Both the position numbers and the translations under genes were made by a program. This document shows positions 10,226-52,591 of a DNA stretch of 64,000 nt, piece after piece. The stretch's first letter is position 1, and each line of letters opens with the position of its first letter. A model generated the notes under the pieces. It searched no databases, was not told the origin of the DNA, and saw only the letters and a list, made by a program, of their open reading frames with translations. Origin of the DNA: Paracoccus sp. (in: a-proteobacteria) (GTDB lineage Bacteria; Pseudomonadota; Alphaproteobacteria; Rhodobacterales; Rhodobacteraceae); NCBI GenBank assembly GCA_030538425.1, contig JAUNTZ010000004.1:1-64000 (forward strand), written 5' to 3'.

Positions 10226-10530
10226 GCCAGTGCCGGAAACCCGCCGCGCGCTCGCCTGCCTTGGATTTGACGTGAAAGCCCAACCCTGTTCTATCGTTTC
10301 TATTGTGCTGCCCGGCAGAGGTTCAGCCTTGAGAGCGCCAAGCCCCTCATCCGCCCGGCATGATGGTCGTCGCGGTTGCCAGTGCTGACAACCCGCCGCG
10401 CGCTCGCCTGCCTTGTATGTGAGGCGAAAGGCCCGTCCCTCTATATTCTTTGTCAGGTGGTCTGGTGCGACGGTTCAGCCTTGCGGGCATCAAGCCCGCT
10501 CATCCGCCCGGCATGATCGCCACAAAAGCC
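10226..10530. repeat. Two-unit tandem repeat including the 3' end of cobS
   Basis: Units start at 10226 and 10378, a period of about 152 bp. Both begin with GCCAGTGC, then CCCGCCGCGCGCTCGCCTGCC, and both carry GGTTCAGCCTTG and CATCCGCCCGGCATGAT. In the right-hand unit that last block encodes the final residues of CobS (IMPGG, stop); in the left-hand unit it is an orphan copy. The middle of the unit is strongly diverged. This repeat fills the 312 bp between the DUF779 gene and cobS. No riboswitch or other gene was seen here. Confidence 0.8.
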
Positions 10531-11243
10531 GCCAGCATGGCCAGTTCGGCGGCCACCTGTGCCGCGCCCAGAATATCGCCGGTCCAGCCGCCGATCTGGC
10601 GCATGGCAAGTGCGGCGGTCAGCGCGGCGGCGACGGTCCCTGCCAGCAACATGGCAAGCCCGCCGGGGATCAACAGGATCACAAGCGCGGCAGGCAGCAC
10701 CGCCCAGATCGTCCCCCGCGCGCCATCAGCGGCAGCCGCCCCCAGACCCTGACCGCGCGCGTTGGGCAGGCAGGTCATGATGACCGGCAGCAACGCGCGG
10801 CTGAAGGCGGCGGCCCCGATCAGCGCCAGCCAGCCGCCCGCGCCGCCCGCCATCTCGGACAGCAGCGCGACCTTGACCCCTGCGGCAAAGATCAGCGCCA
10901 TCACCCCGTAAGAGCCGATCCGGCTGTCGCGCATGATCTCCAGCTTGCGCGCGGGGGTGGCACCGCCGCCCAGACCGTCGGCGCTGTCGGCCAGGCCGTC
11001 CTCATGCAGCCCGCCCGTCGCCAGCCATCCCGCGCCAAGCGCCAGCCAGCCCGCCACCATCGCGGGCAGGGCGCCCACGGCAAGCGTCAGAACAACCGCC
11101 ACGATGCCGCCCACCGCGACCCCGGCAAGCGGATAGGCCCAGAAGGCGCGGCCCATCGCGGGCGCGTCATGGACGGCCCCCACCGGCAGCCGGGTCAGCA
11201 GCGACAGCGCCAGTTGCGCCTCGGTCAGCCGGGCGCGGATCAT
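10500..11243 (-). CDS. cobS: Adenosylcobinamide-GDP ribazoletransferase (cobalamin synthase)
   Basis: Joins adenosylcobinamide-GDP and alpha-ribazole in the last step of B12 assembly (CobV in Pseudomonas naming). A 247-residue inner-membrane protein with several hydrophobic segments. The signature GGLHEDGLADSADGLGGG at about residues 77-94 is present, followed by the RDSRIGSYG block. Its start overlaps the cobT stop in ATGA. Its last codons lie inside a tandem duplication. Confidence 0.95.
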   Translation of the reverse strand: MIRARLTEAQLALSLLTRLPVGAVHDAPAMGRAFWAYPLAGVAVGGIVAVVLTLAVGALPAMVAGWLALGAGWLATGGLHEDGLADSADGLGGGATPARKLEIMRDSRIGSYGVMALIFAAGVKVALLSEMAGGAGGWLALIGAAAFSRALLPVIMTCLPNARGQGLGAAAADGARGTIWAVLPAALVILLIPGGLAMLLAGTVAAALTAALAMRQIGGWTGDILGAAQVAAELAMLAAFVAIMPGG

Positions 11244-12253
11244 GCGGTGATGCCCGCCTCGGCAAAGGTGGCCATGCCGTCATGCACCGCAATCGCCGCC
11301 CGGATCAGGGGCAGCGCGAGTGCCGCGCCCGAGCCCTCGCCCAAGCGCATCCCAAGCGACAGGATCGGGGTCAGACCCACCGCCTCCAACAGGCGGGCAT
11401 GGCCGGGCTCGGCGCTGACATGGGCGGCGATGCAGTGATCCAGCCCGCCCCACCCAGCCACCGTGGCGGCGGCGGCGGTGCAGATGAACCCGTCCAGCAG
11501 CACCGGCACCCGCGCCATCCGCGCCGCCAGCACCGCGCCCGCAATCGCCGCCTGTTCGCGCCCGCCAAGCGCGGCCAATGTCGCAAGCCCGTCCGCGCGG
11601 TCCGGGTGGCGGGCCAGTGCGGCATCCACCACGCGCGCCTTATGCGCGACACCTGCCGTATCCATGCCGGTCCCGGGGCCGGTCCAATCCGCGCCCGCAC
11701 CGCCAAACAGCCCCGCCGCAAGCGCCGCTGCGATGGTTGAATTGCCGATCCCCATCTCGCCCAGAAGAAGGATATCGGCCTGCGGATCAAAGGCCGCCGC
11801 GCCCCGCGCCATGGCGGCGAGGGTCTCGGCTTCACTCATGGCGGGGGTTTGGGTGATGTCGCCGGTCGGGCGCTCCAGCTCCAGCGGCACCACGCTGAGC
11901 GTCGCACCACCGGCGCGGCAAAGCTGGTTAATGGCGGCGCCGCCGGCCTCGAAATTGGCGACCATCAGCGCGGTGACCTCGGCGGGGAAGGGACTGACAC
12001 CCTGCGCGACGACGCCGTGATTGCCTGCGAAAACAATGGCCTGTGCGTGATCCAGATGCGGGCGCTCGGTCCCTTGCCAGCCGGCGATGAAACAGGCGAT
12101 GTCTTCCAGCCGTCCCAGACTGCCTTGCGGTTTGGTCAGGCTGTCCTGCCGTGCCTGCGCTTTGTCTGACGCGGCCAGATCAGCGGCGGGCAGGCCCCGC
12201 GCAAGCTGCGCGCGCAGCGCGTCAAAGGATGAAAAATCAAGGGTTTGGGTCAT
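11240..12253 (-). CDS. cobT: Nicotinate-nucleotide-dimethylbenzimidazole phosphoribosyltransferase
   Basis: Makes alpha-ribazole phosphate from dimethylbenzimidazole and nicotinate mononucleotide (CobU in Pseudomonas naming), in the cytoplasm. 337 residues. Family motifs are TKPQGSLGRLE near residue 39, FAGNHGVVAQGVSPFP, LLLGEMGIGNSTIAAALAA and, near the C-terminus, SLGMRLGEGSGAALALPL, whose Glu is the catalytic base in the family. The start is ATG at 12253, preceded by AGGTG. The open frame runs further upstream, but only through a duplicated stretch that carries a second copy of the first codons. Confidence 0.95.
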   Translation of the reverse strand: MTQTLDFSSFDALRAQLARGLPAADLAASDKAQARQDSLTKPQGSLGRLEDIACFIAGWQGTERPHLDHAQAIVFAGNHGVVAQGVSPFPAEVTALMVANFEAGGAAINQLCRAGGATLSVVPLELERPTGDITQTPAMSEAETLAAMARGAAAFDPQADILLLGEMGIGNSTIAAALAAGLFGGAGADWTGPGTGMDTAGVAHKARVVDAALARHPDRADGLATLAALGGREQAAIAGAVLAARMARVPVLLDGFICTAAAATVAGWGGLDHCIAAHVSAEPGHARLLEAVGLTPILSLGMRLGEGSGAALALPLIRAAIAVHDGMATFAEAGITA

Positions 12254-12446
12254 GGTTTCACCTGTATCGAAGGCCGGAAACGACCAACTGCACCTCAGCC
12301 GCCGTCGCCGCGACAGCCTGATTGAGCGCACCTTGCGCATCGCGGAAATGGCGGGCGAACGCGTTGTCGGAGGCGGCCAGATCAGCGGCGGGCAGGCCCC
12401 GCGCCCGCAGCGCGTCAAAGGATGAAAAATCAACGGTTTGGGTCAT
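12253..12446 (-). repeat. Duplicated cobU-cobT junction (193-bp unit)
   Basis: The segment between the cobU stop/ATG at 12446 and the cobT ATG at 12253 is an extra copy of the junction. On the minus strand it begins with a near-copy of the first codons of cobT (MTQTxDFSSFDALRA, GLPAADLAASD) and continues as a near-copy of the last 35 codons of cobU plus the AGGTGAA spacer. The two ATGs are 193 bp apart, which gives the unit length. Confidence 0.85.
12258..12446 (-). pseudogene. Hybrid orphan ORF: cobT 5' end joined to cobU 3' end
   Basis: A 62-residue open frame created by the duplication. Residues 1-27 match the CobT N-terminus with a short deletion and about 35 residues match the CobU C-terminus (NA-ARxFRDAQGALNQAVA, then AEVxLVVSGL). 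A one-base loss relative to cobU shifts the frame at the end, giving SGLRYR instead of SGLSIQVKP. Its ATG overlaps the cobU stop, so ribosomes finishing cobU could translate it. A function is not expected; it is probably a by-product of the duplication. Confidence 0.75.
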
Positions 12447-12943
12447 GGCTTCACCTGTATCGAAAGGCCGGAAACGACCAACCGCACCTCAGCCGCCGCT
12501 GCCGCCACGGCCTGATTGAGCGCGCCTTGCGCATCGCGGAAACGGCGGGCGAGCGCGTTGTCGGGGACCACGCCAAGGCCGATCTCATTGGTCACAAGGA
12601 TGGCGGGTGCTGTGCGTGCGGCCAATGCGTCAAGGAGCCGCGCTGTCTCTGCCTCGGGGTCGCGCTCGGCAAAGATCAGATTCGACAGCCACAGCGTCAG
12701 GCAATCGACCAGAACCGGCCCCTCGGCGCGCCCCAAGGCCTCCGCCAGATCAAGCGGCGCGTGATGCTCGATCCATGCGCTGCCCCGGCGGGCGCGGTGG
12801 CGGGCAATGCGGGCGGCCATCTCGGCATCGCCCGCCTCGGCGGTGGCGATGTAATGATGCGGGCCGGGCAGGGCGGTCAGCCGGTTTTCGGCATAAAGGC
12901 TCTTGCCCGAGGCGGCCCCGCCTGTGATGAGAATATGCGTCAT
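12443..12943 (-). CDS. cobU: Adenosylcobinamide kinase / adenosylcobinamide-phosphate guanylyltransferase
   Basis: Bifunctional enzyme that phosphorylates adenosylcobinamide and then attaches GMP (CobP in Pseudomonas naming). 166 residues, close to the usual size of about 175. The P-loop GGAASGKS is at residues 8-15, followed by YIATAEAGDAEMAARI and the VDCLTLWLSNL and NEIGLGVVP blocks. GAGGTTAGA precedes the ATG. It is divergent from the histidine phosphatase gene with only 20 bp between the starts. Confidence 0.94.
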   Translation of the reverse strand: MTHILITGGAASGKSLYAENRLTALPGPHHYIATAEAGDAEMAARIARHRARRGSAWIEHHAPLDLAEALGRAEGPVLVDCLTLWLSNLIFAERDPEAETARLLDALAARTAPAILVTNEIGLGVVPDNALARRFRDAQGALNQAVAAAAAEVRLVVSGLSIQVKP

Positions 12944-12963
12944 TCTAACCTCGCAGGTGGTGT

Positions 12964-19819: not shown

Positions 19820-20564
19820 GCGCCATGTCCTTATTCTTGGCGGCACGCTTGAGGCAAGCGCGCTTGCCCGCGAACTGGCCGCGCGCGGCATCCGCGCGAC
19901 CCTGTCCTATGCGGGCCGGACCGAGAGCCCGCGCGCGCAGCCGGTCGACTTGCGTATCGGCGGCTTTGGTGGGGCCGGGGGGCTGGCGGACTGGATGCGC
20001 GCCCATGGCGTGACCCATCTGGTCGATGCCACCCATCCCTTTGCCGCGCAGATTAGCGCCAATGCGGTGGCGGCGAGCCGCGCCGCCCTTGTGCCGCTGA
20101 TCGCGCTGAGCCGCCCCGCATGGCAGGCGGGGGCGGGCGACGTTTGGCAGCATGTCGCGGATATCGCGGGCGCGGTTGCCGCGCTGCAAGGCCCCGCGCG
20201 GCGGGTGTTTCTGGCCACGGGGCGGCAAAATCTTGGCGATTTCGCGGCCCAAACGCAACATTTCTACCTTTTGCGGCTGGTGGACCGGCCCGAGGCCCCG
20301 CCCTTGCCCGATTGCGCCGTGGTCGTGGATCGAGGCCCCTTCACCGTCGCGGGCGATACCGCCCTGATGGCCGCGCATCGCATTGATCTGGTCGTGGCCA
20401 AGAACGCAGGCGGCACGGGCGCGAGCGCCAAGCTGGAGGCCGCCCGCGCGCTTGGCCTGCCGGTGCTGATGATCGACCGGCCCGCGATTCCCGCGCGGCC
20501 CGAGGCGCAAACCGTCGTGGATGTTCTCGACTGGCTGGATCATGGCACCGACCTTGGCGTGTAA
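19818..20564 (+). CDS. cobK: Precorrin-6A reductase
   Basis: NADPH-dependent reduction of precorrin-6A. 248 residues. N-terminal nucleotide-binding region HVLILGGTLEASALAREL, then LVDATHPFAAQISANA, the family signature, and the VVAKNAGGTGASAKLEAA block near the C-terminus. It is the only plus-strand gene in this part of the cluster, back to back with cobL (shared CATG) and convergent with cobJ, with a duplicated junction between them. A complete copy of its last 15 codons occurs 182 bp downstream. Confidence 0.94.
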   Translation: MRHVLILGGTLEASALARELAARGIRATLSYAGRTESPRAQPVDLRIGGFGGAGGLADWMRAHGVTHLVDATHPFAAQISANAVAASRAALVPLIALSRPAWQAGAGDVWQHVADIAGAVAALQGPARRVFLATGRQNLGDFAAQTQHFYLLRLVDRPEAPPLPDCAVVVDRGPFTVAGDTALMAAHRIDLVVAKNAGGTGASAKLEAARALGLPVLMIDRPAIPARPEAQTVVDVLDWLDHGTDLGV

Positions 20565-20883
20565 AGCCAGCCGCCAACCCGCCGCGTCCGGCTGGAGCCG
20601 ATGATGATCACCGTGCGCATATCGGCCATCTCGGGTCGCGCCTCGCGCAGCGCCACGGTGTGCAGCACCTCTTCCGGTGTGGTGACGGTGCGGGCGAAGC
20701 CGATGTTCTCGACTGGCTGGATCATGGCGCCGACCTTGGCGTGTAAAGCCAGCCGCTAACCCGCCGCGTCCGGCTGGAGCCGATGATGACCACGGTGCGC
20801 ATATCGGCCATCTCGGGTCGCGCCTCGCGCAACTCCACGGTGCGCAGCGCCTCGTCCGGTGTGGTGACGGCGCGGGCGAACAG
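20520..20883. repeat. Duplicated cobK/cobJ convergent junction (182-bp unit, two copies)
   Basis: Units start at 20520 and 20702 with GATGTTCTCGACTGGCTGGA. Each unit contains the last codons of cobK on the plus strand and the last 51 codons of cobJ on the minus strand. The left unit carries the true cobK end and an orphan cobJ end; the right unit carries the true cobJ end and an orphan cobK end (DVLDWLDHGADLGV, stop). Differences are scattered substitutions, with no indel seen by eye. Confidence 0.9.
20540..20725 (-). pseudogene. Orphan copy of the cobJ 3' end
   Basis: A 61-residue open frame. After eight residues read from antisense cobK DNA (MIQPVENI), it matches the CobJ C-terminus (LREARPEMADMRTVIIIG, SSRTRR, GWLYTPRS) with about nine substitutions in 51 positions. 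Its ATG overlaps the cobJ stop, so it could be translated by re-initiation. The frame is intact, which suggests a moderately recent duplication. Confidence 0.8.
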
Positions 20884-29735: not shown

Positions 29736-29794
29736 GGTTTGATGGCGGGCGCAAAGCTGACCCGTCACCGGCACACCCCGTCCGGTTTCGTCTT

Positions 29795-29996: not shown

Positions 29997-30036
29997 TGCG
30001 ACCGGGCCCACGACAAGTCAAGCAAGGATGCGCCCG

Positions 30037-37394: not shown

Positions 37395-37402
37395 TCGGCC
37401 TT

Positions 37403-38863: not shown

Positions 38864-39446
38864 GGCGCAGGCGGTTCTCGTCGTGGTGGTCGAACGGCTC
38901 GCGCCCCCGGATCATCAGCGTGGTGTCGATGCGGTAGGACCAGCTGTCGTCATCATGCAGCGTCACCTCGATGCGGTAGCGGTCGGTGCGGAAGTTCTGT
39001 TCGAGAAAATCGTTCGAGACGATCCCGTAATCCGCAGCCCCCCGCCGCGCCTCGACGCTGAAGCGGCGGGCGTCCTTCTCGGCCTTGCCTGCGGCCAGAA
39101 ACGCCTGCCCGCGCGGGATCGTGCCGCTTTGCAGCAACAGCCCGCTGGCGGGTTCCCACAGCCAATAGCCAACCTGATCGTGGAAGGTGATCTTTTCCTC
39201 GGGGTTGTTGATATGGATGTGATAGCGCAGCCCGTAAAGCAGTTGCGGCCCGTTGGTCTGCGCGTCGATCGGATCAAAGCGCACCCTTTCGATGAACTGC
39301 TTGCGTTCTGGCCCCTGGGCCTTGGGGCTGACATCGAGACCCTTTTGCGCCTCCCATGTGCCGGCCAGGGCGCGCAGCGGGCCAAGATGGGCAAGCGTAT
39401 CAGCCGAGACCGGCGGTTCGGTATAGATATCGGGCGGCGGGTGCAT
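38823..39446 (-). CDS. FABP-like heme-binding beta-barrel protein (nitrobindin-like)
   Basis: 207 residues. N-terminal LAGTWEAQKGLDVSPKA and the later LLYGLRYHIHIN, GYWLWEPASGLLLQS and FRTDRYRIEVTLHDD stretches fit the FABP/DUF1794 family of ten-stranded barrels, some of which bind heme and react with nitric oxide or peroxynitrite. No signal peptide. Role in this organism is unknown. The C-terminus (SANPLAAG) is duplicated downstream. Confidence 0.78.
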   Translation of the reverse strand: MHPPPDIYTEPPVSADTLAHLGPLRALAGTWEAQKGLDVSPKAQGPERKQFIERVRFDPIDAQTNGPQLLYGLRYHIHINNPEEKITFHDQVGYWLWEPASGLLLQSGTIPRGQAFLAAGKAEKDARRFSVEARRGAADYGIVSNDFLEQNFRTDRYRIEVTLHDDDSWSYRIDTTLMIRGREPFDHHDENRLRRVAGPSANPLAAG

Positions 39447-39725: not shown

Positions 39726-42533
39726 ATGAGTTTCGGCAAAGGCCACCACCTGCATCTGATCGACGGATCGGCCTTTATCTTCCGCGCCTATCACGCGCTG
39801 CCGCCGCTGACGCGGAAATCGGACGGGTTGCCGGTGGGCGCGGTGGCGGGGTTCTGCAATATGCTGTGGAAATATGTGCAGGATGCCAACGGCTCGGGCG
39901 GGCCGACCCATGCGGCGGTGATCTTCGACCATTCGTCCAAGACCTTCCGCAATGAGATCTATCCCGATTACAAGGCCAACCGCCCCGAGCCGCCCGAGGA
40001 TCTGCGCCCGCAATTCCCGCTGACCCGCGACGCCACCCGCGCCTTCAATATCGCCTGTATCGAGACCGAGGGGTTCGAGGCCGACGACATTATCGCGACC
40101 CTTGCCTGCCGGGCGCGCGATGCGGGCGGCTCGGCCACGATCATCAGTTCGGACAAAGACCTGATGCAACTGATCGGGGGCGGCGTCGATATGCTGGACC
40201 CGATCAAGAACAGCATTATCGGTCCCGATGAGGTGCGCGAAAAATTCGGCGTCGGGCCGGATCGGGTCGTCGATATTCAGGCCCTCGCAGGCGATTCGGT
40301 CGATAACGTGCCGGGCGCGCCGGGCATCGGGGTCAAGACAGCCGCGCTGCTGATCAACGAATATGGCGATCTGGAAAGCCTGCTGGAACGCGCCGAGGAA
40401 ATCAAACAGCCCAAGCGCCGCCAGACGCTGATCGATTTTGCAGAACAGATCCGGATCTCGAAACGGCTGGTGACGCTTGATTGCGACACGCCGCTTGATC
40501 TTGATCTGGCCTCGCTTGAGGTCCGCGCGCCCGAGCCTGAGGCCCTGCTGGGCTTTCTGGCGCAGATGGAGTTCCGCACCCTGACCGCCCGCGTGGCCGA
40601 GCGTCTGGGCGCCGACGCCCCCGCCGTGCCCGACCCCGCGCCGGTCAGCACCCCTGCCGCACAGGCCGCCGCCGCGCCCGACTGGCCCGCCATCGACCAT
40701 GCGGCCTATGAGACCGTCACCGATGAGGCCGCGCTTGACCGCTGGATCTCCGCGATTCGTGAGGCGGGGGCGGTTGCCATAGATACTGAGACAACCTCGC
40801 TCGATGAAATGCAGGCCGAGTTGGTGGGCATCTCGCTGGCGCTTGGACCGGGGCGGGCCTGTTATATTCCGGTCGGCCATATCGCGGGCGGGGGGGATCT
40901 GTTCGGCGGGGTCGAGAAGGTCGCGGGCCAGCTTGACCGCGATCTGGTTCTGGCGCGGCTGAAGCCCGTGCTTGAGGATTCCGCCACGCTGAAAATCGGC
41001 CAGAACGCGAAATATGACTGGAAGATCCTCGCCCGCCACGGCATCCGCATGGCGCCCTTGGAGGATACCATGCTGCTCTCCTATGCGCTTTATGCGGGTG
41101 AGCATAATCACGGCATGGATGAGCTGTCCGAGCGTTATCTGGCCCACCACCCGCTGCCGATCAAGGATCTGATCGGCTCGGGCAAGGCGCAAATCAATTT
41201 CGCGCAGGTCGAGATCGACCGCGCCGCGCCCTATGCCGCCGAGGATGCCGAGATCACCTGGCGGCTGCGCGAGGTGCTGCGCCCAAGGCTGGGTCCGGCG
41301 CAGGTCACGACCGCCTATGAGACGCTGGAGCGTCCGATGATCCCGGTTCTGGCGGAGATGGAAATGGCGGGCATTCGCGTCGATACCGATCACCTGTCGC
41401 GGATGTCGAACGCCTTCGCGCAGAAAATGGCCGGGCTTGAGGATGAGATCCACGCCCTTGCCGGTGGCCCGTTCAATGTCGCAAGCCCCAAGCAGTTGGG
41501 CGATATCCTGTTCGGGCAGATGGGGCTTGCGGGTGGCAAACAGGGCAAGACAGGGGCCTTCTCGACCAGTGCCGATGTGCTGGAGGATCTGGCCGCCGAG
41601 GGGCACGAACTGCCTGCCCGCGTGCTTGACTGGCGGCAGATTGCCAAGCTCAAAAGCACTTATACGGATGCGCTGCAAACCCATGTGAACCCCGATACGG
41701 GCCGGGTGCATACGTCCTATTCCATCGCGGGCGCGCAGACCGGGCGGCTGGCCTCGACCGATCCGAACCTGCAAAACATCCCCGTGCGCAGCGACGAGGG
41801 GCGGCGCATCCGCGAAGCCTTTGTCGCAGCCCCCGGTCATAGCCTTGTCAGCCTTGACTACAGCCAGATCGAGCTGCGGATTCTGGCCCATGTCGCGGAT
41901 ATTCCGGCGCTGAAACAGGCGTTCCGCGACGGCATCGATATTCACGCCATGACCGCCAGCCAGATGTTCGGCGTCCCGGTCGAGGGCATGGACCCGATGA
42001 TCCGCCGCCGCGCCAAGGCGATCAATTTCGGGGTGATCTATGGCATCTCGGGCTTTGGACTGGCGCGCAACCTGCGCATCCCGCGCGCCGAGGCGCAAGA
42101 GTTCATCGACACCTATTTCCAGCGTTTCCCCGAGATCCGCGCCTATATGGACGACACCGTCGCCAAAGCGCAGCGCGACGGGTTCGTGCGCACGATCTTT
42201 GGCCGCCGGATCATGACGCCGGGCATCAATACCAAAGGCCCCGCCGCCGGTGGCGCCCGCCGCGCGGCGATCAACGCCCCGATTCAGGGCGCCGCTGCCG
42301 ACATCATCCGCCGCGCAATGATCCGCATGGGTGAAGCGGTCCGAGACCTGCCCGCGCGGATGCTGCTGCAGGTGCATGACGAGCTGGTGTTTGAGGTCGA
42401 ACAGGGCGCCGAAGCCGCGCTGATCGACGCCGCCCGCGCGGTGATGGAGACCGCGCCGGAGCCTGCGGTGAAGCTGTCGGTGCCTTTGGTCGTGGATGCC
42501 GGGCAGGGCGCGAACTGGGCGGCTGCGCATTAG
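39726..42533 (+). CDS. polA: DNA polymerase I
   Basis: 935 residues with all three domains. 5'-3' exonuclease: LIDGSAFIFRAYHALPP near the N-terminus and SSDKDLMQL. 3'-5' exonuclease: AIDTETTSLDEMQAELVGIS, which keeps the Asp-x-Glu pair and so looks active. Polymerase: motif A LDYSQIELRILAHVA (Asp near 711), motif B RRRAKAINFGVIYGISGFG, motif C VHDELVFEV. Repairs DNA and removes primers. The end, LSVPLVVDAGQGANWAAAH, is followed by nine decayed copies of itself. Start ATG at 39726; the longer frame upstream has no support. Confidence 0.97.
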   Translation: MSFGKGHHLHLIDGSAFIFRAYHALPPLTRKSDGLPVGAVAGFCNMLWKYVQDANGSGGPTHAAVIFDHSSKTFRNEIYPDYKANRPEPPEDLRPQFPLTRDATRAFNIACIETEGFEADDIIATLACRARDAGGSATIISSDKDLMQLIGGGVDMLDPIKNSIIGPDEVREKFGVGPDRVVDIQALAGDSVDNVPGAPGIGVKTAALLINEYGDLESLLERAEEIKQPKRRQTLIDFAEQIRISKRLVTLDCDTPLDLDLASLEVRAPEPEALLGFLAQMEFRTLTARVAERLGADAPAVPDPAPVSTPAAQAAAAPDWPAIDHAAYETVTDEAALDRWISAIREAGAVAIDTETTSLDEMQAELVGISLALGPGRACYIPVGHIAGGGDLFGGVEKVAGQLDRDLVLARLKPVLEDSATLKIGQNAKYDWKILARHGIRMAPLEDTMLLSYALYAGEHNHGMDELSERYLAHHPLPIKDLIGSGKAQINFAQVEIDRAAPYAAEDAEITWRLREVLRPRLGPAQVTTAYETLERPMIPVLAEMEMAGIRVDTDHLSRMSNAFAQKMAGLEDEIHALAGGPFNVASPKQLGDILFGQMGLAGGKQGKTGAFSTSADVLEDLAAEGHELPARVLDWRQIAKLKSTYTDALQTHVNPDTGRVHTSYSIAGAQTGRLASTDPNLQNIPVRSDEGRRIREAFVAAPGHSLVSLDYSQIELRILAHVADIPALKQAFRDGIDIHAMTASQMFGVPVEGMDPMIRRRAKAINFGVIYGISGFGLARNLRIPRAEAQEFIDTYFQRFPEIRAYMDDTVAKAQRDGFVRTIFGRRIMTPGINTKGPAAGGARRAAINAPIQGAAADIIRRAMIRMGEAVRDLPARMLLQVHDELVFEVEQGAEAALIDAARAVMETAPEPAVKLSVPLVVDAGQGANWAAAH

Positions 42534-43441
42534 GGCGGGCGCTGATGGAGGGCGCGGCGGAAGCTGCGCAAGCTGTCGTTGCCTTTGGTCGTTGATGCGG
42601 GGCAGGGCGCGAACTGGACGGCTGCGCATTATTTCGGGCTTTGCCGTAATGGAGCACTAGGCGGAACCTGCGGTGAAGTTGTCTGTGCCTCTGGTGGTGG
42701 ATGCAGGGCAGAGCGCGAACTGGGCGGCCGCGCATTAGGGCGGGCCGTGATGGAGCGCTCGGCGCAGCCGTAGCAAATCTGTCTGTGCCTCTGGTTGTCG
42801 ATGCGAAGCAGGTCGCGAGCTGGGCCGCCGCGACTTAGTGCGGGCGATGCCGTGATTGAGTGGGCGGCGGATCGCGCGGTGGAGCTGTCGGTGCTTCTGG
42901 TCGTCGCTTCGAAGTAGGCCGCGAAGCGGGCCGCCGCGAATTAGCGGCCCGCGCGGTGATGGCGACCGCGCCCGAACTTGCGGTGAAGCTGTTGGTACCG
43001 CTGGTGATAGACGCAGGGCAAGGCGCGAACCGGGCCGCCGCGAATTAGGGCGGGCCGCGCCGTGATGGAGTGCGCGGCAGAACCTGCGGTGAAGCTTTCG
43101 GTTCTTATGGTCGTCTATGCAGGGCGGCCCGCGAATTGGGCCGCTGTGCATTAGGGCGGGGGGGATGGAGCGCTCGGCGGAGGCTGCGCAAGCTGTCGTT
43201 GCCTTTGGTCGTTGATGCGAGGCAGGGCGCGAACTGGGCCGCCGCGCATTAGCGCCTAGCGCCGTGACGGAGCGCTCGGCGGAGCGTGTGGTGAAGTTGT
43301 CTGTGCCTCTGGTCGTTGATGCGGGAAGGGTGTGAGCTGCGCATTAGTGCGGGCCCTGCCGTGCTGGGGACTGCGGTTAAGCTGTCGGTGCCTTTGGTGG
43401 TCGATTCCGGGCAGGGCGCGCATTGGCCCGATGTATATTAG
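42438..43441 (+). repeat. Ten-unit tandem array of the polA 3' end (one live, nine decayed)
   Basis: Each unit is about 94-106 bp and ends in a copy of the last codons of polA, usually still closed by TAG. Unit ends fall at about 42533 (live gene), 42632, 42738, 42838, 42944, 43048, 43154, 43252, 43347 and 43441. Shared landmarks are GTGATGGAG, CTGCGGTGAAGCTGTC, TGCCTTTGGTCGT, GCAGGGCGCGAACTGGGC and GCGCATTAG. The unit ending at 43048 keeps an open frame, VKLLVPLVIDAGQGANRAAA. The units ending at 42632 and 43252 are more like each other than like their neighbours. Nothing else was seen in this stretch. Confidence 0.93.
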
Positions 43442-43510
43442 CGGCCCGCGCCCCGCCACAAACCTGCTGACCGCACGTTTTTGATCGGGTCGCGAATTTC
43501 CACACGGCAC

Positions 43511-43589: not shown

Positions 43590-45818
43590 TTGGAACGATC
43601 AGCCCAAACCGGATTTTGGTGCCGCATCGCGGCCTTTCTTCATGTCGTGGTCGCCGCGTTTTTCATCGCCGCAGGTGCTGCATCGGCGCAGTCGCCGGTC
43701 CTCGCGCAATTCCTTGAGACCGTCGCACCCGCCGATCTGGCCCCCGGCGCGGACGGGTTCGGGCCGTTGCGGGACGATCTGCCGGTGGCCCCCGTCATGC
43801 GCGGCGCAGATCGGATCGGCTGGGCCTTTATCACCAGCGATTTCGTTGGCACCACCGGCTATTCGGGCAAGCCCATTCACACCATGGTCGCGGTCGATGA
43901 TGGCGCGCAGGTGATCGGCGTCAAGCTGGTGAAACATTCCGAACCCATCGTGCTGATCGGCATCCCCGAATCGCGCATGGTCGAGATGGTGGCGGGCTAT
44001 GTGGGCCTCGATCTGGTGGCTGAGGCGCTCGCGGGCGGCTCGGCGCATGATCTGAACATCATTTCGGGCGCAACCGTTACGGTCATGGTGATCGACGACA
44101 ATATCGTGCGCGCGGGCCTGCGGGTGGCGCGGGCGCTGGGTCTGGGCGGGCTTGGTCCCGATCAGGCGGAGGCCGCGCCCCCGCGCGAGATTGCCGAGGA
44201 CGCCGCCCCGATCACCGACTGGGCCGAGGGTGAGGGCGATGGCACCATCCGCCGTCTGGTCCTGACCGTGGGTGAGATCAACGAGGCCTTCGACGCCCAT
44301 GACGACCTGCGCGCCGCCGCACGCCCCCTGCCCAATGAGCCGGAGACGGTGTTCATCGACATGCAGGCGGCGCTTGTCTCGGTGCCCTCCATCGGTCTGC
44401 CGATCCTTGGCGCGGCGGAATATGGCAATGTCGAGACATGGCTGGAGGAAGGCGACAGCGCCATCGCGATTGCCGGTCTTGGCATCTATTCCTTCAAGGG
44501 GTCGGGCTATGTGCGCGGCGGGATATTTGACCGTATCCAGTTGATTCAGGACGATATCTCGGTGCGGTTCCGCGACCGCCAGCATCGCCGCACCACCATC
44601 GCCCTAGAAGGCGCGCCCGATTTTACCGAGATGGACCTGTTCCGCATCCCCGCCGATAGCGGCTTTGATCCGGCGCGGCCCTTCCGCATTCAGCTTCTGG
44701 TGCATCGTGATGTCTCGGCCCTGGACAAGGCGTTTCTGACCTATGATCTGGGCTATCAACTGCCCGAGCGTTATCTGGCCCCGCTGCCCGCGCCGGAACC
44801 CGCTCCTGCGCCCGCCGCGCCCGTCGCCGCCGATCTGGACGAGGCCGCCGCGCAGGCCGCGCTGTGGCAACGGGTCTGGGATGCCAAGCGCCCGCAGATC
44901 GCGGTTGTGGTCGCCATGCTGGGCGTGCTGACGGCGGCGTTCTTCTTTCAGGACTTTTTCACCCGCTCGGAACGCGCGGTGCGGATTTTCCGGCTGTCCT
45001 TCCTGACCGTGACGCTTGTCGTTCTGGGCTGGATGTGGAACGCGCAGCTTTCGGTGGTGAATATCCTCGCGCTGTTCGCCAGCCTGCGCGACGGGTTTTC
45101 GTGGCAGGCATTCATGCTGGACCCGCTGACCTTCATCCTGTGGTTCAGCGTCGCGGCGGCGCTGATCTTCTGGGGGCGTGGGGCCTATTGCGGCTGGCTT
45201 TGCCCGTTCGGCGCATTGCAGGAACTGACCAACCAGATCGCGCGCAAGCTGAGCGTGCCGCAGATCACCGTGCCGTGGTTCATCCATGAACGGGCATGGG
45301 CGGTGAAATACATGATCTTCCTTGGCCTGTTCGGGGTCTCGCTGATGAGCCTTGACCGGGCCGAGCATCTGGCCGAGGTCGAGCCGTTCAAGACCGCGAT
45401 TATCCTGAACTTCCAACGCTCATGGCCGTTCCTGCTTTATGTCGGCGTGCTGCTGGGGGCCGGGCTGTTCATCGAGCGGTTCTATTGCCGTTACCTCTGC
45501 CCGCTTGGCGCGGCGCTGGCGATCCCGGCGCGGCTGCGGATGTTCGACTGGCTCAAGCGTTACAAGGAATGCGGCAATCCGTGCCAGACCTGCGCCAAGG
45601 AATGTTTCGTGCAGGCCATCCATCCCGAGGGCCAGATCAACCCCAACGAGTGTCTGAACTGTATGCACTGTCAGGTGCTGTATCACTCGGAGACGAAATG
45701 CCCCGTCGTCATCAAGCGGCTGAAACGCCGCAAGAGCATCAGCGACAGCGGCGTGCCCGATCTTGGGCCGCGCGCGGGCATCACCAACCACCCCAATCTT
45801 GTGACGAAGGGAGTCTGA
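43590..45818 (+). CDS. nosR: NosR, membrane iron-sulfur flavoprotein for nitrous oxide reduction
   Basis: 742 residues. Supports electron supply to and activation of NosZ. Signal-like N-terminus ([15 protein letters not shown]), then a periplasmic FMN-binding domain ([19 protein letters not shown] around residues 152-170, Thr as flavin site). A membrane region with several helices follows, with two CxxxCP motifs ([13 protein letters not shown] and [10 protein letters not shown]). Then come 4Fe-4S ferredoxin cysteines in [12 protein letters not shown] and CLNCMHCQ. The start is TTG at 43590, supported by AGGAAG five bases upstream; the nearby ATG at 43558 is out of frame. Confidence 0.95.
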
Positions 45819-45819
45819 G

Positions 45820-47796
45820 ATGATTGAAGACAACAAGACCCGGATCAGCCGTCGCGGCCTGCTTGGCGCAACGGCAGGCGGCGCAGCCCTGCTGGGCGGT
45901 GGCATCACCACGCGCAGCGCCTTCCTTGCCGCCGCGACCGGCGGCGCGGCGACCGCAGCCGCCTCAAGCGCGGCGCAGGCGCAAGCGGCCTCTGGCGCGC
46001 CCAATGTGCATATCGCGCCCGGCCAGCTTGATACCTATTACGGCTTCTGGTCCTCGGGCCAGACCGGCGAGGCGCGGATCCTGGGCATCCCGTCCATGCG
46101 CGAATTGATGCGGATTCCGGTGTTCAACCGCTGTTCCGCGACCGGCTGGGGCCAGACCAATGAATCGATCCGCATCCATCAGCGGACGATGAGCGACAAG
46201 ACCCGCGCTTTCCTTGAGGCGAATGGCAAGAAGATCCACGACAACGGCGATCTTCACCATATCCATATGTCCTATACGGACGGGCGCTATGACGGCCAGT
46301 ATCTGTTCATGCAGGACAAGGCCAATGGCCGCATCGCGCGGATCCGCTGCGATGTGATGAAATGCGACGCCATTCTGGAAATGCCCAACGCCACCGCCAT
46401 GCACGGGATGCGCCCGCGCAAGGTGCCGTCCTCGAACTATATCTTCTGCAACAGTGAGGATGAAACGCCGCTGGTCAATGACGGCACGACCATGCATGAC
46501 ACCTCCACCTATGTGAACCTGTTCAGCGCCGTGGACAGCGAAACCATGGATGTGGCCTGGCAGATCATGGTCTCGGGCAACCTTGACAATTGCGACGCCG
46601 ATTATGACGGGAAATATGCGTTCTCGACCTCGTATAACTCGGAAATGGGGATGACCCAGCCCGAGATGACCGCCGCCGAAATGGACCATGTGGTGATTTT
46701 CGACATTGAGGCGATCGAGGCCGCGATCGAACGTGGCGAGTATGAGGAGCTCAACGGCGCCAAGGTGCTGGACGGGCGCAAGGAAAACGCGGCTGCACGG
46801 CTGACCCGTTACGTCCCGATCCCGAACAACCCGCATGGCTGCAACATGGCCCCGGACAAGATCCACCTCTGCATCGCGGGCAAGCTGTCGCCCACGGTCA
46901 GCGTGATCGACGTGCGCCTGCTGCCCCCGGTCTTTGCCGATGAGGCGGAACCCGAAAGCTGCATCGTCGCACAGCCCGAGCTGGGCCTTGGCCCGCTGCA
47001 CACTGCCTTTGACGGCGAGGGGAACTGCTATACCTCGCTGTTCCTCGACAGTCAGGTGGTCAAGTGGAACCTTGATCGTGCCGTGCGCGCCTATGCGGGC
47101 GAAAATGTCGATCCGATCATCTCCAAGGTCGATGTGCATTATCAGCCGGGCCACCTGAAAACCACGCTTGGCGAAACGCTTGATGCCGATGGCAAATGGT
47201 TGGTCTGTCTGTCCAAGTTCTCGAAGGACCGCTTCCTGAATGTCGGCCCGCTCAAGCCCGAAAACGACCAGTTGATCGACATCTCGACCGATCAGATGGT
47301 GGTGGTCCATGACGGCCCGAACTTTGCCGAGCCGCATGACGCGATTGCCGTTCCGGCCGCGCTGATGACGCCGATCATCAAATCGGTCTGGGACCGCAAC
47401 GATCCGATGTGGGCAGAGACCCGCGCACAGGCCGAGGCCGACGGGATCGACCTTGACGACTGGCAGGACAGCGTGATCCGCGATGAGGCCGACCCGACCA
47501 AGGTGCGGGTCTATATGTCCTCGCAGGCGCCGAACTTTGCCCTCGACATGTTCGAGGTCAACGAGGGCGACGAGGTCACCGTCATCGTCACCAACCTTGA
47601 CGATATCGACGACCTGACCCACGGCTTCACGCTTGGCAATCACGGTATCGCGATGGAGGTCGGGCCTATGGCCACGTCCTCGATCACCTTCAAGGCGGCG
47701 AAGCCCGGCGTTTACTGGTATTATTGCCAGTGGTTCTGCCACGCGCTGCATATGGAGATGCGCGGCCGGATGCTGGTTAACCCCAAGGCGGCCTGA
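45820..47796 (+). CDS. nosZ: Nitrous-oxide reductase, clade I
   Basis: Reduces N2O to N2 in the periplasm. 658 residues. A Tat signal ([16 protein letters not shown]) marks the clade I, Tat-exported type. The N-terminal seven-bladed propeller carries CuZ histidines in [21 protein letters not shown] and [12 protein letters not shown]. The C-terminal cupredoxin has the CuA ligands in [12 protein letters not shown] (C-x3-C-x3-H-x2-M) near residues 635-646. AAGGGAG precedes the ATG, one base after the nosR stop. It shares one base with nosD. Confidence 0.98.
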
Positions 47797-49124
47797 TGAT
47801 GATCCGCATCCTTGCCCTTGCCATGATCCTGCTGGCCGGTCCCCTCGGGGCCGCCACTGCGGTCGTGCCTGCGGGCGGGGATGCTTTGCAACGCGCCATC
47901 GCCGGGTCCGCGCCCGGCGATGTGCTGATCCTTGAGCCGGGGCTGCATCACGGCCCCGTCACCATCGACCACGCCCTGACGCTTGAAGGGCGTGAGGGCG
48001 CGCAGATCGACGGCGGCGGGCAGGGCAGCGTGATTTTTGTCACCGCCGAGAATGTCACCATTCGCGGGCTGCTGCTGACCGGATCGGGCAATTCGCATCA
48101 GGATATCGATTCGGGCGTGTTGCTGACCCGGACCGCCCATGGCGCTTTGGTTGAGAATAACCGGCTGGAGGGCAATCTTTACGGCGTCGATATTCACGGC
48201 GCGCGGGACAGCATCGTCCAGAACAACGTGATCATCGGGCGGCGCGACCACCGGATGAACAGCCGGGGCAATGGCGTCTATGTCTGGAACGCGCCCGGCG
48301 CGCAGGTGATCGGGAACCGCATCCGCTATGGGCGTGACGGGATCTTTACCAACTCATCGCGGCAAAACGTGTTTCGCGACAATATGATGACCGATCTGCG
48401 TTTCGCCGTGCATTACATGTATACCAATGACAGCGAGGTCAGCGGCAATATCTCGGTGGGGAACCATCTGGGCTATGCGATGATGTTCTCGGACCGGGTG
48501 ACGATCACTGATAACCTGTCGATCAACGACCGCGACCATGGGGTGATGCTGAACTATGCCAATGGCGCGGATGTGGCGGGCAATCTGGTTACCGGCGGGC
48601 CGGAAAAATGCACCTTCATCTATAACGCGCATCGCAACCTGATCGTGGACAACCGTTTCGAGGGCTGCGATATTGGCATCCATTTCACCGCAGGTTCCGA
48701 ACGCAACGCATTGACCGGAAACGCCTTTATCGGCAACCGCACGCAGGTGAAATATGTCGGCACCCGCGATATCGAATGGAGCCTTGAGGGGCGCGGCAAT
48801 TACTGGTCGGATCACCCGGTTTTCGATCTGAACGGCGACGGGATTGCCGACAGCCGGTTTCGGCCGAATGATCTGATGGATCATATTCTCTGGTCGCAGC
48901 CCGCCGCCGCGCTTCTGACCGGCAGCCCCGCTGTGCAGTTGATCCGCTGGAGCCAGGCGAATTTCCCGGCCACCCTGCCGGGCGGCGTCGTGGACAGCTT
49001 TCCGCTGACCCGCCCTGTGGTGATCGACCTGCCCCCCGAAATTGCAGAAATGGCGGCTCGCGCGCCGCTTTGGAAAACCGTAAGGACCGATGACGATGGC
49101 GCTGACGCTTTCGCACCTCACTAA
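47796..49124 (+). CDS. nosD: NosD, periplasmic copper-site maturation protein
   Basis: 442 residues with a signal peptide (ILALAMILLAGPLGAATA) and a right-handed parallel beta-helix (CASH/PbH1 repeats: GNRIRYGRDGIFTNSS, DNLSINDRDHGVMLNYAN and similar). Works with NosF and NosY in delivering sulfur for the CuZ tetranuclear centre. The ATG shares a base with the nosZ stop (TGATG). Two consecutive ATGs are possible starts. Confidence 0.95.
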   Translation: MMIRILALAMILLAGPLGAATAVVPAGGDALQRAIAGSAPGDVLILEPGLHHGPVTIDHALTLEGREGAQIDGGGQGSVIFVTAENVTIRGLLLTGSGNSHQDIDSGVLLTRTAHGALVENNRLEGNLYGVDIHGARDSIVQNNVIIGRRDHRMNSRGNGVYVWNAPGAQVIGNRIRYGRDGIFTNSSRQNVFRDNMMTDLRFAVHYMYTNDSEVSGNISVGNHLGYAMMFSDRVTITDNLSINDRDHGVMLNYANGADVAGNLVTGGPEKCTFIYNAHRNLIVDNRFEGCDIGIHFTAGSERNALTGNAFIGNRTQVKYVGTRDIEWSLEGRGNYWSDHPVFDLNGDGIADSRFRPNDLMDHILWSQPAAALLTGSPAVQLIRWSQANFPATLPGGVVDSFPLTRPVVIDLPPEIAEMAARAPLWKTVRTDDDGADAFAPH

Positions 49125-49989
49125 ACGCTTCGGCGATTTCACCGCGCTGAATGATGTGGCGCTTGCCGTTCAGCCCGGTCAGCGGGTCGCGCTGCTGGGC
49201 CATAACGGCGCGGGCAAATCCACGCTGATGAAGATCGTGCTGGGGCTGATCCCCTTTGATGGCGGCGAGGTGTCGGTGATGGGCTCAGGCCCGGGCAGCG
49301 CCGAGGCCCGCGCGCGCGTCGCCTATCTGCCCGAGAACGTCGCATTTCACCCCGCGCTGAGCGGGCTTGAGATGGTCCGCTATTATCTGCGGCTGCGCGG
49401 TCAGCCGGTCTCCGAGGCACCCGGCTTGCTGGAGCGGGTCGGGCTTGGCCATGCGATGAAGCGGCGCATCGGCACTTATTCCAAGGGGATGCGGCAGCGG
49501 GTCGGTCTGGCGCAGGCGCTGATCGGGCGGCCCGGCCTGCTGGTTCTGGATGAGCCGACCTCGGGGCTTGATCCGGTCTCGCGGCGGTCGTTTTACGAAT
49601 TGCTGGACGGTCTGGCCGCCGAGGGCGCGGGCATCCTGCTCTCCAGCCACGCCCTGACCGAGGTTGAGGCGCGCACCGATCGCATCGTCATTCTGTCGCA
49701 GGGCCGTCGCGTGGCTGAGGGCACATTGGCCGATCTGCGCCGTGAGGCGGCGTTGCCGGTCTCTTATCTGCTGATCCCGCAACCGGGGGCCGAACCGGGC
49801 CTGCGCGCCGCATTCCCCGAGGCGCGCGACAACCCTGCGGGCCTGATCCTGTCGGGCGCGCAAAGCGACAAGCTGGAGACTCTGCGCCGCATCGCGGCCA
49901 TGCCGGATCTGGTCGCGGATCTGGAGGTGATGCCGCCCAGTCTGGAAGATATCTACAGCCATTTCGGCGCAAAGGGGGCCGCAGCATGA
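49090..49989 (+). CDS. nosF: NosF, ABC ATPase for NosZ maturation
   Basis: 299 residues. Walker A LLGHNGAGKSTLMKI near 36, signature YSKGMRQRVGLAQAL, Walker B LLVLDEPTSGLDP, and the switch His in LLSSHALTEVE. Energises the NosDFY complex from the cytoplasm. It overlaps the end of nosD by 35 bp. Two in-frame ATGs, 49090 and 49096; AAGGA sits three and nine bases ahead of them respectively, so the second is at least as likely. Confidence 0.95.
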   Translation: MTMALTLSHLTKRFGDFTALNDVALAVQPGQRVALLGHNGAGKSTLMKIVLGLIPFDGGEVSVMGSGPGSAEARARVAYLPENVAFHPALSGLEMVRYYLRLRGQPVSEAPGLLERVGLGHAMKRRIGTYSKGMRQRVGLAQALIGRPGLLVLDEPTSGLDPVSRRSFYELLDGLAAEGAGILLSSHALTEVEARTDRIVILSQGRRVAEGTLADLRREAALPVSYLLIPQPGAEPGLRAAFPEARDNPAGLILSGAQSDKLETLRRIAAMPDLVADLEVMPPSLEDIYSHFGAKGAAA

Positions 49990-50810
49990 TCGGGCGTATT
50001 CTGGCCACGGCGCAGGCTGAATTGCGCATCGCGCTGCGCAACCGTTGGGTGGCGATTGCGGTTGCCATGATGGCGGTGTTTGCGCTTGTGCTGTCGGCGG
50101 CGGGTTCGGCGCCCACGGGGGCACTTGGCGCGGACCGGCTGTCGGTGGTGGTGGCCTCACTGACGAATCTTGCCGTCTATCTGGTTCCGCTGCTCGCTTT
50201 GCTGATGTCATTCGACGCGGTGGCGGGCGAGGTTGAGCGCGGCACGCTGCCGCTGCTTCTGACCTATCCGATTGCGCGGGCCGAGATCCTGGCCGGACGC
50301 CTGCTGGCGCATCTGGCCATTCTGGGGCTGGCGGTCGCGGTGGGTTACGGTCTGGCCGCGATTGCCGCGATTGCCGTTGATGGCGGCGCAGTCGCCGGTC
50401 TGCCCGCCTTGTGGCGCCTGTTCTGGACCTCGCTCTTACTGGGCGCGAGCTTTCTGGGTCTTGGCTATGTGCTGTCGGCTTTGTCGCGCAGGCCGTCGGG
50501 GGCGGCGGGTCTGGCGATTGGCGCATGGCTGGTCGCGGTGGTGCTTTACGACCTTGGCCTTCTGGCCGGTCTGGTCGCCACCGGCGGCGAGGGGGCCTTC
50601 GGCGCGGCGCTGCCCGCTTTGTTGCTGGCCAACCCCGCCGATGCGTTCCGCCTGTATAATCTTGCCGCATCTGAGGCCACGGCGGCGGCGGCAGGTCTGG
50701 GCGGGGCTGCGAACACGATCCCCGCATGGGCCTCGCTTTTGTCCCTGTTACTGTGGCCGGTCGCGATGCTGACCGCCGCCAGCCTTGTCTTTCGTCGGGT
50801 GCAGCCATGA
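49986..50810 (+). CDS. nosY: NosY, ABC permease for NosZ maturation
   Basis: 274 residues with six predicted membrane helices. The block DAVAGEVERGTLPLLLTYPIAR is typical of NosY/ABC-2 permeases. Partner of NosF in the inner membrane. ATGA overlaps with nosF upstream and nosL downstream. Confidence 0.95.
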   Translation: MIGRILATAQAELRIALRNRWVAIAVAMMAVFALVLSAAGSAPTGALGADRLSVVVASLTNLAVYLVPLLALLMSFDAVAGEVERGTLPLLLTYPIARAEILAGRLLAHLAILGLAVAVGYGLAAIAAIAVDGGAVAGLPALWRLFWTSLLLGASFLGLGYVLSALSRRPSGAAGLAIGAWLVAVVLYDLGLLAGLVATGGEGAFGAALPALLLANPADAFRLYNLAASEATAAAAGLGGAANTIPAWASLLSLLLWPVAMLTAASLVFRRVQP

Positions 50811-51367
50811 AACGTCTTGCCCTGATCGCCCTTGTCGCGCTGAGCGCCTGCCGAGAGGAACAGGCCGCCATCCCGGGGCCTGTGACGATGACCGAATCGG
50901 CGGTGGGTCACTTCTGCCAGATGAACGTGTTGGAACATCCCGGCCCCAAGGCGCAGGTGCATCTCAAGGACGTGATGGACCCGCTGTTCTTCAGTCAGGT
51001 GCGCGACGCCATTGCCTATCAGCGGATGCCTGAGCAAAGCCACGAGGTGATCGCGGTCTATGTCAGCGATATCGCGCAGGCCGAAAGCTGGGATTTCCCC
51101 GGCGCGGATAACTGGATCGCGCAGGAAAGCGCGGTCTATGTTCTGGGCTCTGACCGCGAGGGCGGGATGGGCGCGGCCGAGACGATCCCCTTTTCGACGC
51201 GAGAGGCCGCCGAGGCCTTTATCGCGGACCATGGCGGTGAGATCCGCGCCCTTGACCAGATCACCACCGAAGAGGTGCTCAGCCCCGATGACGGGGCGAG
51301 CGCCGCGGCTGAGGATGACAGCGCGGGCGATTATGCCGACCGGCTTCGCAGGCTTGGCCGGGATTGA
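50807..51367 (+). CDS. nosL: NosL, copper-binding lipoprotein
   Basis: 186 residues. A lipobox (LVALSAC) after a short signal peptide indicates an outer-membrane or periplasmic lipoprotein. MNVLEHPGPKAQVHLKD carries the conserved Met and His for Cu(I), and the preceding CQM is also a ligand candidate. NosL hands copper to apo-NosZ through NosDFY. ATGA overlap with nosY. The last 25 residues are acidic and of low complexity. Confidence 0.94.
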   Translation: MKRLALIALVALSACREEQAAIPGPVTMTESAVGHFCQMNVLEHPGPKAQVHLKDVMDPLFFSQVRDAIAYQRMPEQSHEVIAVYVSDIAQAESWDFPGADNWIAQESAVYVLGSDREGGMGAAETIPFSTREAAEAFIADHGGEIRALDQITTEEVLSPDDGASAAAEDDSAGDYADRLRRLGRD

Positions 51368-51377
51368 GGAGAAAGCG

Positions 51378-52274
51378 ATGAACAGGCGGCGGTTTCTGAC
51401 AATCACGGCGGCGATGTGCGCCTATGCGGCGCTGCCCGGTGGGGCTCGGGCGGGCGGCTATGCGCAGTGGGAAGGGGTCGCGCTTGGCGCAAGGGCGCGG
51501 ATCACGCTTGAGGCGCCCGATGCGGGGCTGTTCGAGGCAATCCGCGCCGAGATTGCCCGGCTGGAGGATGTGTTCAGCCTCTATCGCCCCGGCTCCGCCC
51601 TGTCGCGGCTCAACCGCGACGGCGTGATCGAGGCCCCGCCCTTTGAGCTTGCCGATTGCCTTGCCCTTGCCGGGCGGGTGCATGAGGCGACCCACGGGCT
51701 GTTCGATCCGACCGTCCAATCGCTCTGGCTGGCCTATGCCGATGCGCAAGGCGCGCCCGCGCCCGCGCGGCTCAAGGCGCTTGCGATGGGGTGGCAGGGG
51801 GTGCGGCTGGACCCCGCGCGGATCAGCCTGGGTGAGGGCATGGCCCTGACGCTGAACGGGATTGCGCAGGGCTATATCGCGGACCGGGTCGCGGCGCTGA
51901 TCCGGGCGCGGGGCTACGACCGCGTCATGGTCGATACGGGTGAGCTGCACGCCATCGGCACCGCGCCGGATGGGCGCGACTGGCCGGTGACGCTTGCGGG
52001 CGGCGGGCAGATCGGGCTGGAGAGCCGCGCGCTTGCCACATCGGCGCCGCTTGGCACCAGCTTTGATGCGGGCGGACGGGTCGGGCATATTCTGGACCCG
52101 CGCAGCAGAGAGCCTGCCCCTGCGCGATGGGCTTCGGTCTCGGTGTCGTCGGGCTCGGCGGCGGTGGCGGATGCGCTGTCAACGGCCTGCTGCCTGATGG
52201 AAAGCCGCGCCGCGATGGACCGTGCCGCAGCCGGTTTCCGCGACACAAGGGTTGAGCGGGCTCAGGCGGTGTAG
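51378..52274 (+). CDS. nosX: NosX, FAD:protein FMN transferase for NosR
   Basis: ApbE-family enzyme of 298 residues that attaches FMN to NosR. Tat-type signal MNRRRFLTITAAMCAYAALP. ApbE motifs: DVFSLYRPGSALSRLNRDG, LTLNGIAQGYIADRVAALI and VMVDTGELHAIG, where many ApbE proteins read NxGG; the Glu-Leu here is an oddity within NosX. GGAG precedes the ATG. The last 85 codons are duplicated directly downstream. Confidence 0.93.
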   Translation: MNRRRFLTITAAMCAYAALPGGARAGGYAQWEGVALGARARITLEAPDAGLFEAIRAEIARLEDVFSLYRPGSALSRLNRDGVIEAPPFELADCLALAGRVHEATHGLFDPTVQSLWLAYADAQGAPAPARLKALAMGWQGVRLDPARISLGEGMALTLNGIAQGYIADRVAALIRARGYDRVMVDTGELHAIGTAPDGRDWPVTLAGGGQIGLESRALATSAPLGTSFDAGGRVGHILDPRSREPAPARWASVSVSSGSAAVADALSTACCLMESRAAMDRAAAGFRDTRVERAQAV

Positions 52275-52591
52275 CCCCTCACCGTCTGGGCCTTGCGGGC
52301 TCGATAACCGCGCGCTTGCCACATCGGCGCCGCTTGGCACCAGCTTTGATGCGGGCGGACGGGTCGGGCATATTCTGGACCCGCGCAGCAGAGAGCCTGC
52401 CCCTGCGCGATGGGCTTCGGTCTCGGTGTCGTCGGGCTCGGCGGCGGTGGCGGATGCGCTGTCAACGGCCTGTTGCCTGATGGAGAGCCGCGCCGAGATG
52501 GACCGCGCCACAGCCGGTTTCCGAGACACAAGGGTTGAGCGGGCTCAGGCGGCGTAGCCCTCACCCTCTGGGCCTTGCAGGCTCGGGCGCG
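52024..52591. repeat. Duplicated nosX/pirin junction (284-bp unit, two copies)
   Basis: Units start at 52024 and 52308 with CCGCGCGCTTGCCACATCGG. The unit holds the last 83 codons of nosX, its TAG, and the beginning of the convergent pirin-gene terminus (CTCTGGGCCTTG). By eye the first 166 bases are identical between copies, and about ten differences, including one indel, all fall in the last 115 bases. Confidence 0.92.
52308..52557 (+). pseudogene. Orphan copy of the nosX 3' end
   Basis: Encodes RALATSAPLGTSFDAGGRVG onward to RVERAQAA and a TAG, in the same relative frame as NosX. Changes against NosX are confined to the last 25 residues (Ala to Glu, Ala to Thr, Val to Ala). No start codon or ribosome-binding site of its own is evident, so it is a non-functional fragment. 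Confidence 0.85.

Follow-up and report, generated by a model that had tools for sequence, protein, structure and literature searches.

The first 64,000 nucleotides of contig JAUNTZ010000004.1 from a draft Paracoccus assembly (GCA_030538425.1), here called the window, contain seven tandem arrays at gene junctions. Each is built from copies of the DNA in which it lies, and each overlaps the 3' end of a coding sequence. Combining these arrays with those found elsewhere in the genome and with the corresponding loci of relatives, we suggest that small tandem duplications probably keep arising independently in this lineage and survive where they are harmless, especially at 3' ends and convergent junctions.

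The seven arrays had been described in a first-pass annotation, and they are real: a self-BLAST of the window for direct repeats (at least 40 bp, within 1,500 b, E-value 1e-4) recovers all of them and no further repeat of this kind in the window, and third-order Markov shuffles of the window (n=5) gave zero clusters. They are listed in window order, with the spacing and identity of the best match closing each line.

10226-10517, cobS array: two copies at a spacing of about 152 bp, convergent DUF779 gene (+) and cobS (-); 152 bp, 76.6%
12158-12564, cobU/cobT array: two copies at a spacing of about 194-202 bp, co-directional cobU to cobT, both (-); 202 bp, 88.8%
20520-20880, cobK/cobJ array: two copies 182 bp apart, 94% identical, convergent cobK (+) and cobJ (-); 182 bp, 94.4%
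30667-31413, cobQ array: about four copies of about 180 bp, about 71% alike, convergent cobO (+) and cobQ (-); 180 bp, 70.7%
38656-38864, heme-binding array: two copies 138 bp apart, convergent zinc-finger gene (+) and THAP4-type heme-binding gene (-); 138 bp, 84.5%
42429-43452 (+), polA array: polA tail, then nine decayed copies at about 100-106 bp spacing; 101 bp, 71.9%
52013-52585, nosX array: two copies 283 bp apart, 95.5% identical, convergent nosX/apbE (+) and pirin gene (-); 283 bp, 95.5%

Gene calls rest on an in-house finder based on codon usage and not on a standard annotation program; cobS, cobT, cobU, cobK, cobJ, cobQ and polA each score above an NCBIfam cut-off, and the nosX product is ApbE-family by Pfam, the label nosX being that of the first-pass annotation. 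As that annotation had stated, five of the seven junctions are convergent; the remaining two are co-directional.

Alignments and raw sequence identify the units as copies of local DNA and not of a shared element. The description of the arrays as copies of gene ends holds at every locus in that a coding 3' end is overlapped, and needs some amendments: (i) copy 2 of the cobS array includes the cobS tail, and of it the final 18 coding bases and no more, (ii) besides the cobU tail, the cobU/cobT unit takes in the cobT start, and (iii) at the locus described as zinc-finger/FABP the tail of the heme-binding beta-barrel gene is copied, the zinc-finger gene contributing only its last base. At the cobQ locus it is the cobQ tail that is copied and not the cobO tail, and the final copy extends into the cobQ coding tail. 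The polA array begins with about 99 coding bases including the stop, the next gene being co-directional, and the nine tail copies are 73.7-85.7% identical to the original tail. The nosX array covers 262 bp of the nosX tail and extends 25 bp into the pirin gene. A 31-bp sequence repeated 3.2 times (38733-38832) lies partly between the two copies of the heme-binding array.

Ancestral arrangement and genome-wide density

The single-copy state is evident in relatives. Matches to cobT, cobJ and cobQ were obtained in 44, 57 and 48 relative genomes, and 29 loci were examined for each gene; the corresponding gene end is free of repeats in all of them (0/29 in all three cases); strict repeats, as defined below, occur elsewhere in four of the cobT and cobQ loci (L199, L267, L273 and L275). 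The 3' ends of cobK and cobJ overlap in 28 of the 29 relatives, by 22-37 bp and most commonly by 25 bp, and in L240 they lie 23 bp apart. In the window 157 bp separate the two genes, and each 182-bp copy retains the two stop codons in a 25-bp overlap, the length most common in relatives. Similarly, a gene lies upstream of cobT on the same strand in 26 of 29 relatives and overlaps or abuts it in 24 of these 26, seven times by exactly 4 bases; the window retains, at about 12443-12446, a ghost cobT start in overlap with the cobU stop. Because removal of one unit restores the arrangement of the relatives at both loci, the cobK/cobJ and cobU/cobT arrays are derived duplications, and it is the 182-bp duplication that pulled cobK and cobJ apart here. 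The named matches of a polA search place the genome in Paracoccus. The gap between polA and the next gene is 1,113 bp in the window, whereas across 79 loci its median is 55 bp, with one locus reaching 1,510 bp; L086, the nearest polA relative found by name, has a 402-bp gap without an array.

Arrays of this kind are not confined to the window. We sampled 716,505 b, or 27% of the assembly (92 contigs, 86.6% complete) with the window included, at a GC content of about 63%, and defined arrays strictly by a match of at least 55 bp and at least 0.45 of its own offset. This gave 33 rows, of which 12 lie at convergent, 15 at co-directional and one at divergent junctions, and five at stretch or contig edges; the distinct arrays number 32, L020 and L170 being one array split by a stretch border. 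Outside the window there are 26 rows (25 distinct arrays) in 652,505 b, or 3.98 per 100 kb, and the window is a dense patch of the genome, with seven arrays in 64 kb (10.9 vs about 3.9 per 100 kb). The density in relatives is lower: eight rows in 1,703,906 b (0.47 per 100 kb) in 80 GTDB loci, mostly Paracoccus, that represent one genomic neighbourhood around polA, and six rows in 560,934 b (1.07 per 100 kb) in the few stretches available from five congeners. G015 alone accounts for four rows in 180,000 b, and the G013 and G014 stretches have no junction rows. For G072, which cobT and cobQ place nearest among 60 congeners and cobJ places among the nearest, the count is three rows in 147,353 b (2.04 per 100 kb). 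The excess in our genome has p = 5e-9 against the polA neighbourhoods and p = 0.001 against the five congeners pooled, these values, like those for the junction types below, being computed with a count one too high (33 rows for 32 arrays). The first-pass annotation had proposed such a comparison of junctions with relatives, and over 27% of the assembly an excess is seen.

Three of the eight baseline rows are a conserved stem-loop pair after ccoP, and two are neighbouring coding repeats in L154 that resemble paralogous genes. As part of the relatives' baseline is thus not tail duplication, the density contrast would, if anything, be larger than these figures suggest. A coding 3' tail is overlapped by one of three rows in G072, one of one in G007, one of eight in the GTDB loci (L154) and none of five in G008 and G015. 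Intragenic arrays show no excess, with four in our 716,505 b, four in the 560,934 b of the five congeners and three in the GTDB loci.

Identities within the arrays run from 66.4 to 95.5% with no gap above about 4 points, and the continuity of this range indicates that the arrays differ in age. An all-against-all comparison of the 33 rows revealed no repeat family: the one strong cross-match is the single array split by the stretch border, and the only others are three weak matches of 19-43 bp. The earlier proposals that the sequences are unrelated between loci, and that the duplications are recurrent, independent and of different ages instead of the product of one event, are therefore borne out, here genome-wide and at a density above that of congeners.

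Junction type and selection

The first-pass annotation had further proposed a process that acts on gene termini, perhaps tied to convergent transcription. In support of a targeted process, the rate per junction climbs with the number of 3' ends, from 1/105 at divergent through 15/414 at co-directional to 12/99 at convergent junctions (convergent vs divergent, p = 0.001; convergent vs co-directional, p = 0.002). Among the 15 co-directional arrays, five overlap only a 3' end, none only a 5' start, five both and five neither. Overall, 20 of the 28 arrays away from edges overlap a 3' tail, seven of seven in the window and 13 of 21 elsewhere in the sample, which leaves eight without any such overlap.

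We simulated random tandem duplications of the observed unit sizes and filtered them by rules of survival. A filter that protects only open reading frames (ORFs) fails to fit the split among junction types (p = 5e-5 on the relatives' gene map, p = 0.002 on our own). With ORFs, starts and 60 bp upstream protected, 11.2 convergent, 13.5 co-directional and 3.3 divergent arrays are expected on the relatives' map compared with 12, 15 and 1 observed (p = 0.46); with 0 and 120 bp upstream of the start, p = 0.17 and 0.42. On neither map did we find an excess at convergent junctions beyond the selection-filtered random model, and on our own map with the 60-bp filter the 12 convergent arrays compare with 14.0 expected. 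The simulation places single units and real arrays span at least two, for which reason tail-overlap figures were not compared. The 3' bias is what selection against harm to starts and promoters would leave, and a targeted process is not needed.

We consequently regard it as unlikely that mutation is directed to 3' ends or to convergent transcription, for instance by R-loops, polymerase collision or terminator hairpins that stall replication forks: the selection-filtered model reproduces on the relatives' map the very split that speaks for targeting, and after control for composition the array borders show no raised tendency to form hairpins. Raw folding energies at the borders did differ (p = 0.001), and this difference disappeared under dinucleotide shuffles (z -0.13 vs -0.36 at array-free 3' ends, p = 0.15); convergent midpoints without arrays are in fact more structured (z -0.90, p = 0.004).

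Origin of the duplications and rival explanations

We suggest the following scheme: (i) units of about 65-285 bp would arise when replication slips or switches template between short direct repeats; (ii) they would survive mainly where each gene keeps one intact copy and its start and promoter are undisturbed, such places being 3' ends and convergent junctions, and a gene whose end is spanned by a unit would stay whole with a ghost tail behind it; (iii) further slippage or unequal exchange could extend some arrays to many copies; and (iv) the ghost copies, presumably neutral, would then decay. Slippage or template switching is hinted at by direct homology at the outer borders of three of the 16 arrays that, among the 33 rows, have at least 82% identity (cobU/cobT, 11 bp; nosX, 8 bp; L019, 8 bp). 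The other arrays of the 16 lack such homology, contain many copies, sit at an edge or have decayed too far.

Several observations weigh against recurrent duplication with survival where harmless. Clear terminal homology of 8-11 bp is limited to three of the 16 arrays, and the cobK/cobJ array, among the youngest, has none. On our own gene map, in which junctions are lengthened by the arrays themselves, the simulation fits less well, with p = 0.11, 0.027 and 0.008 for the start-protecting filters with 0, 60 and 120 bp; at 60 and 120 bp the misfit is a surplus of co-directional arrays and a shortfall at convergent and divergent junctions. With 0 or 60 bp protected upstream of the start, 3.3-5.2 divergent arrays are expected and a single one is observed. 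Nor does the model account for the persistence, despite the deletion bias of bacteria, of long arrays in decay (about 10 units at polA, about 13 at L035). A pure survival model also leaves the excess over congeners without an account, and no repair defect was found; the raised density may stem from mutation or from relaxed selection.

For the repair genes, RecJ and MutS are both present above cut-off, and loss of either is rejected. PolA has no change specific to this genome at columns invariant in 24 relatives (the comparison set being 25 others, L086 plus 24, with L091, which has an internal stop, excluded). The gene xseA was not found here and is present in 59 of 61 Paracoccus genomes, our own counted among the 61; the other genome without it, G017, is 71% complete. 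Its neighbour purD gave no protein match here in a search that had no positive control of its own, and in our assembly the matches to the whole 4.4-kb xseA locus of G072 were short and weak at the DNA level. Because the whole xseA/purD block seems to be missing, the absence of xseA is probably an assembly gap. A more far-reaching version, in which an active mutator in this lineage produces tandem duplications out of gene ends, step by step uncouples overlapping genes (cobK/cobJ, cobU/cobT) and inflates the intergenic DNA of a presumably free-living bacterium, is tentative and in our judgement doubtful.

The persistence of large decayed arrays (about 10 copies at polA; 66-bp units over 907 bp at L035) might suggest that arrays are kept for a function as tandem terminators, RNA stabilisers or insulators. 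We regard this as quite unlikely: many copies have decayed to about 70%, the loci share no sequence, their borders have no excess structure, an Rfam scan of the window gave no match at the arrays and found only a cobalamin riboswitch and a tRNA, and at the three sites compared none of the 29 relatives per site has an array. An assembly artefact, in which strain variants or graph scars of a draft and probably metagenome-assembled genome were joined in tandem, would agree with its fragmentation (92 contigs, 86.6% complete) and with exact 55-bp repeats 155 bp apart in this genome (L029:2814-3023) and in another draft (L218:3483-3692), a repeat length that suggests a k=55 assembly scar. It is nonetheless very unlikely, given that copies differ by 4.5-34%, several with indels, and number up to ten, that 28 of the 33 rows are clear of any stretch or contig edge, and that less fragmented congeners such as G015 also have arrays. 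The many loci and their intergenic placement recall the insertion at junctions of a repeat family, dispersed or mobile, of the MIRU, REP or IS-like kind. This is extremely improbable: the units copy local sequence, have no ends in common and form no family, the nosX unit has no second locus except a 71-bp, 78% match on C70, and no transposase was found among the more than eight window genes scanned beside the arrays, consistent with the earlier statement that neither transposases nor shared ends are visible.

Two of these arrays deserve separate mention. L035:8946-9852 consists of 66-bp units over about 907 bp (about 13 units, 73% alike) between two co-directional genes. Another Paracoccus species, G015, has its own independent array 3' of polA, made of about four 119-bp units that are 93% alike and beginning about 125 bp after the gene (L039 / L181:13382-13806).

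Related systems and neighbouring features

In Ehrlichia ruminantium, intergenic tandem units reportedly expand and contract, as Collins in 2005 and Frutos in 2006 are said to have described; the units are about 150 bp and the coding ratio is about 64%. This intergenic tandem-unit expansion appears to be the closest precedent. Tandem-unit expansion and contraction in noncoding regions of this species is described in PMC10710844. The likeness lies in many unrelated intergenic tandem arrays genome-wide in an alphaproteobacterium, with a median unit of 157 bp in Paracoccus. Unlike E. ruminantium, Paracoccus is presumably free-living, has a GC content of about 63% and a coding ratio of 0.853 (vs 0.88-0.89 in G008, G015 and the GTDB loci) and not about 64%, and most of its arrays copy a coding gene tail.

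Bacterial minisatellites, the variable-number tandem repeat (VNTR) loci used in multilocus VNTR analysis (MLVA), are likewise locus-specific intergenic tandem units; the Paracoccus arrays differ by their high density, and the origin of two of them can be read from the overlapping genes of relatives. Mycobacterial MIRU are tandem units at gene junctions that touch stops and starts and form one homologous family, whereas every Paracoccus locus has its own sequence, with no homologous units at unlinked loci. Mutants in flap processing (FEN1/Rad27, the 5'-nuclease of PolA) accumulate duplications between short direct repeats; some Paracoccus arrays share short terminal homology, and the Paracoccus PolA is without a change of its own at invariant columns. 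In a literature search judged by titles and listings we found no report of such arrays in Paracoccus.

Set side by side, the arrays are cases of different age that show how intergenic DNA expands in bacteria and how overlapping genes come apart while both are kept. They also illustrate that selection on the sites at which duplications can persist can give the appearance of a process aimed at gene ends. Should a mutational cause underlie the raised rate, this lineage would offer a natural model for how tandem duplications of 100-300 bp are normally suppressed.

Among the neighbouring features of the window, the cobalamin riboswitch (Rfam RF00174) lies at 29786-30001 (-) and adjoins cob genes. 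The genes at 43647-52274, 3' of polA, read as a nos cluster, of which the first and last were scanned; a search of the relatives' 80 polA neighbourhoods with the first gene of this putative cluster gave no match at E 1e-8.

The stem-loop pair met in the density baseline follows the end of ccoP/fixP in Paracoccus relatives, the two stem-loops being about 100-150 bp apart with the conserved loop TGTTCGCGCGTTC. It occurs at L088, L095, L096 (L096:21585-21725), L098, L103, L114, L119 and L131, the identity of the ccoP/fixP gene having been tested at all of these except L095. The loop has 31 matches in the 1.70 Mb of GTDB loci, one in G015 and none in the 716 kb of our own sample. The six loci scanned gave no Rfam match at the gathering score, and the pair is possibly an undescribed RNA or terminator element.

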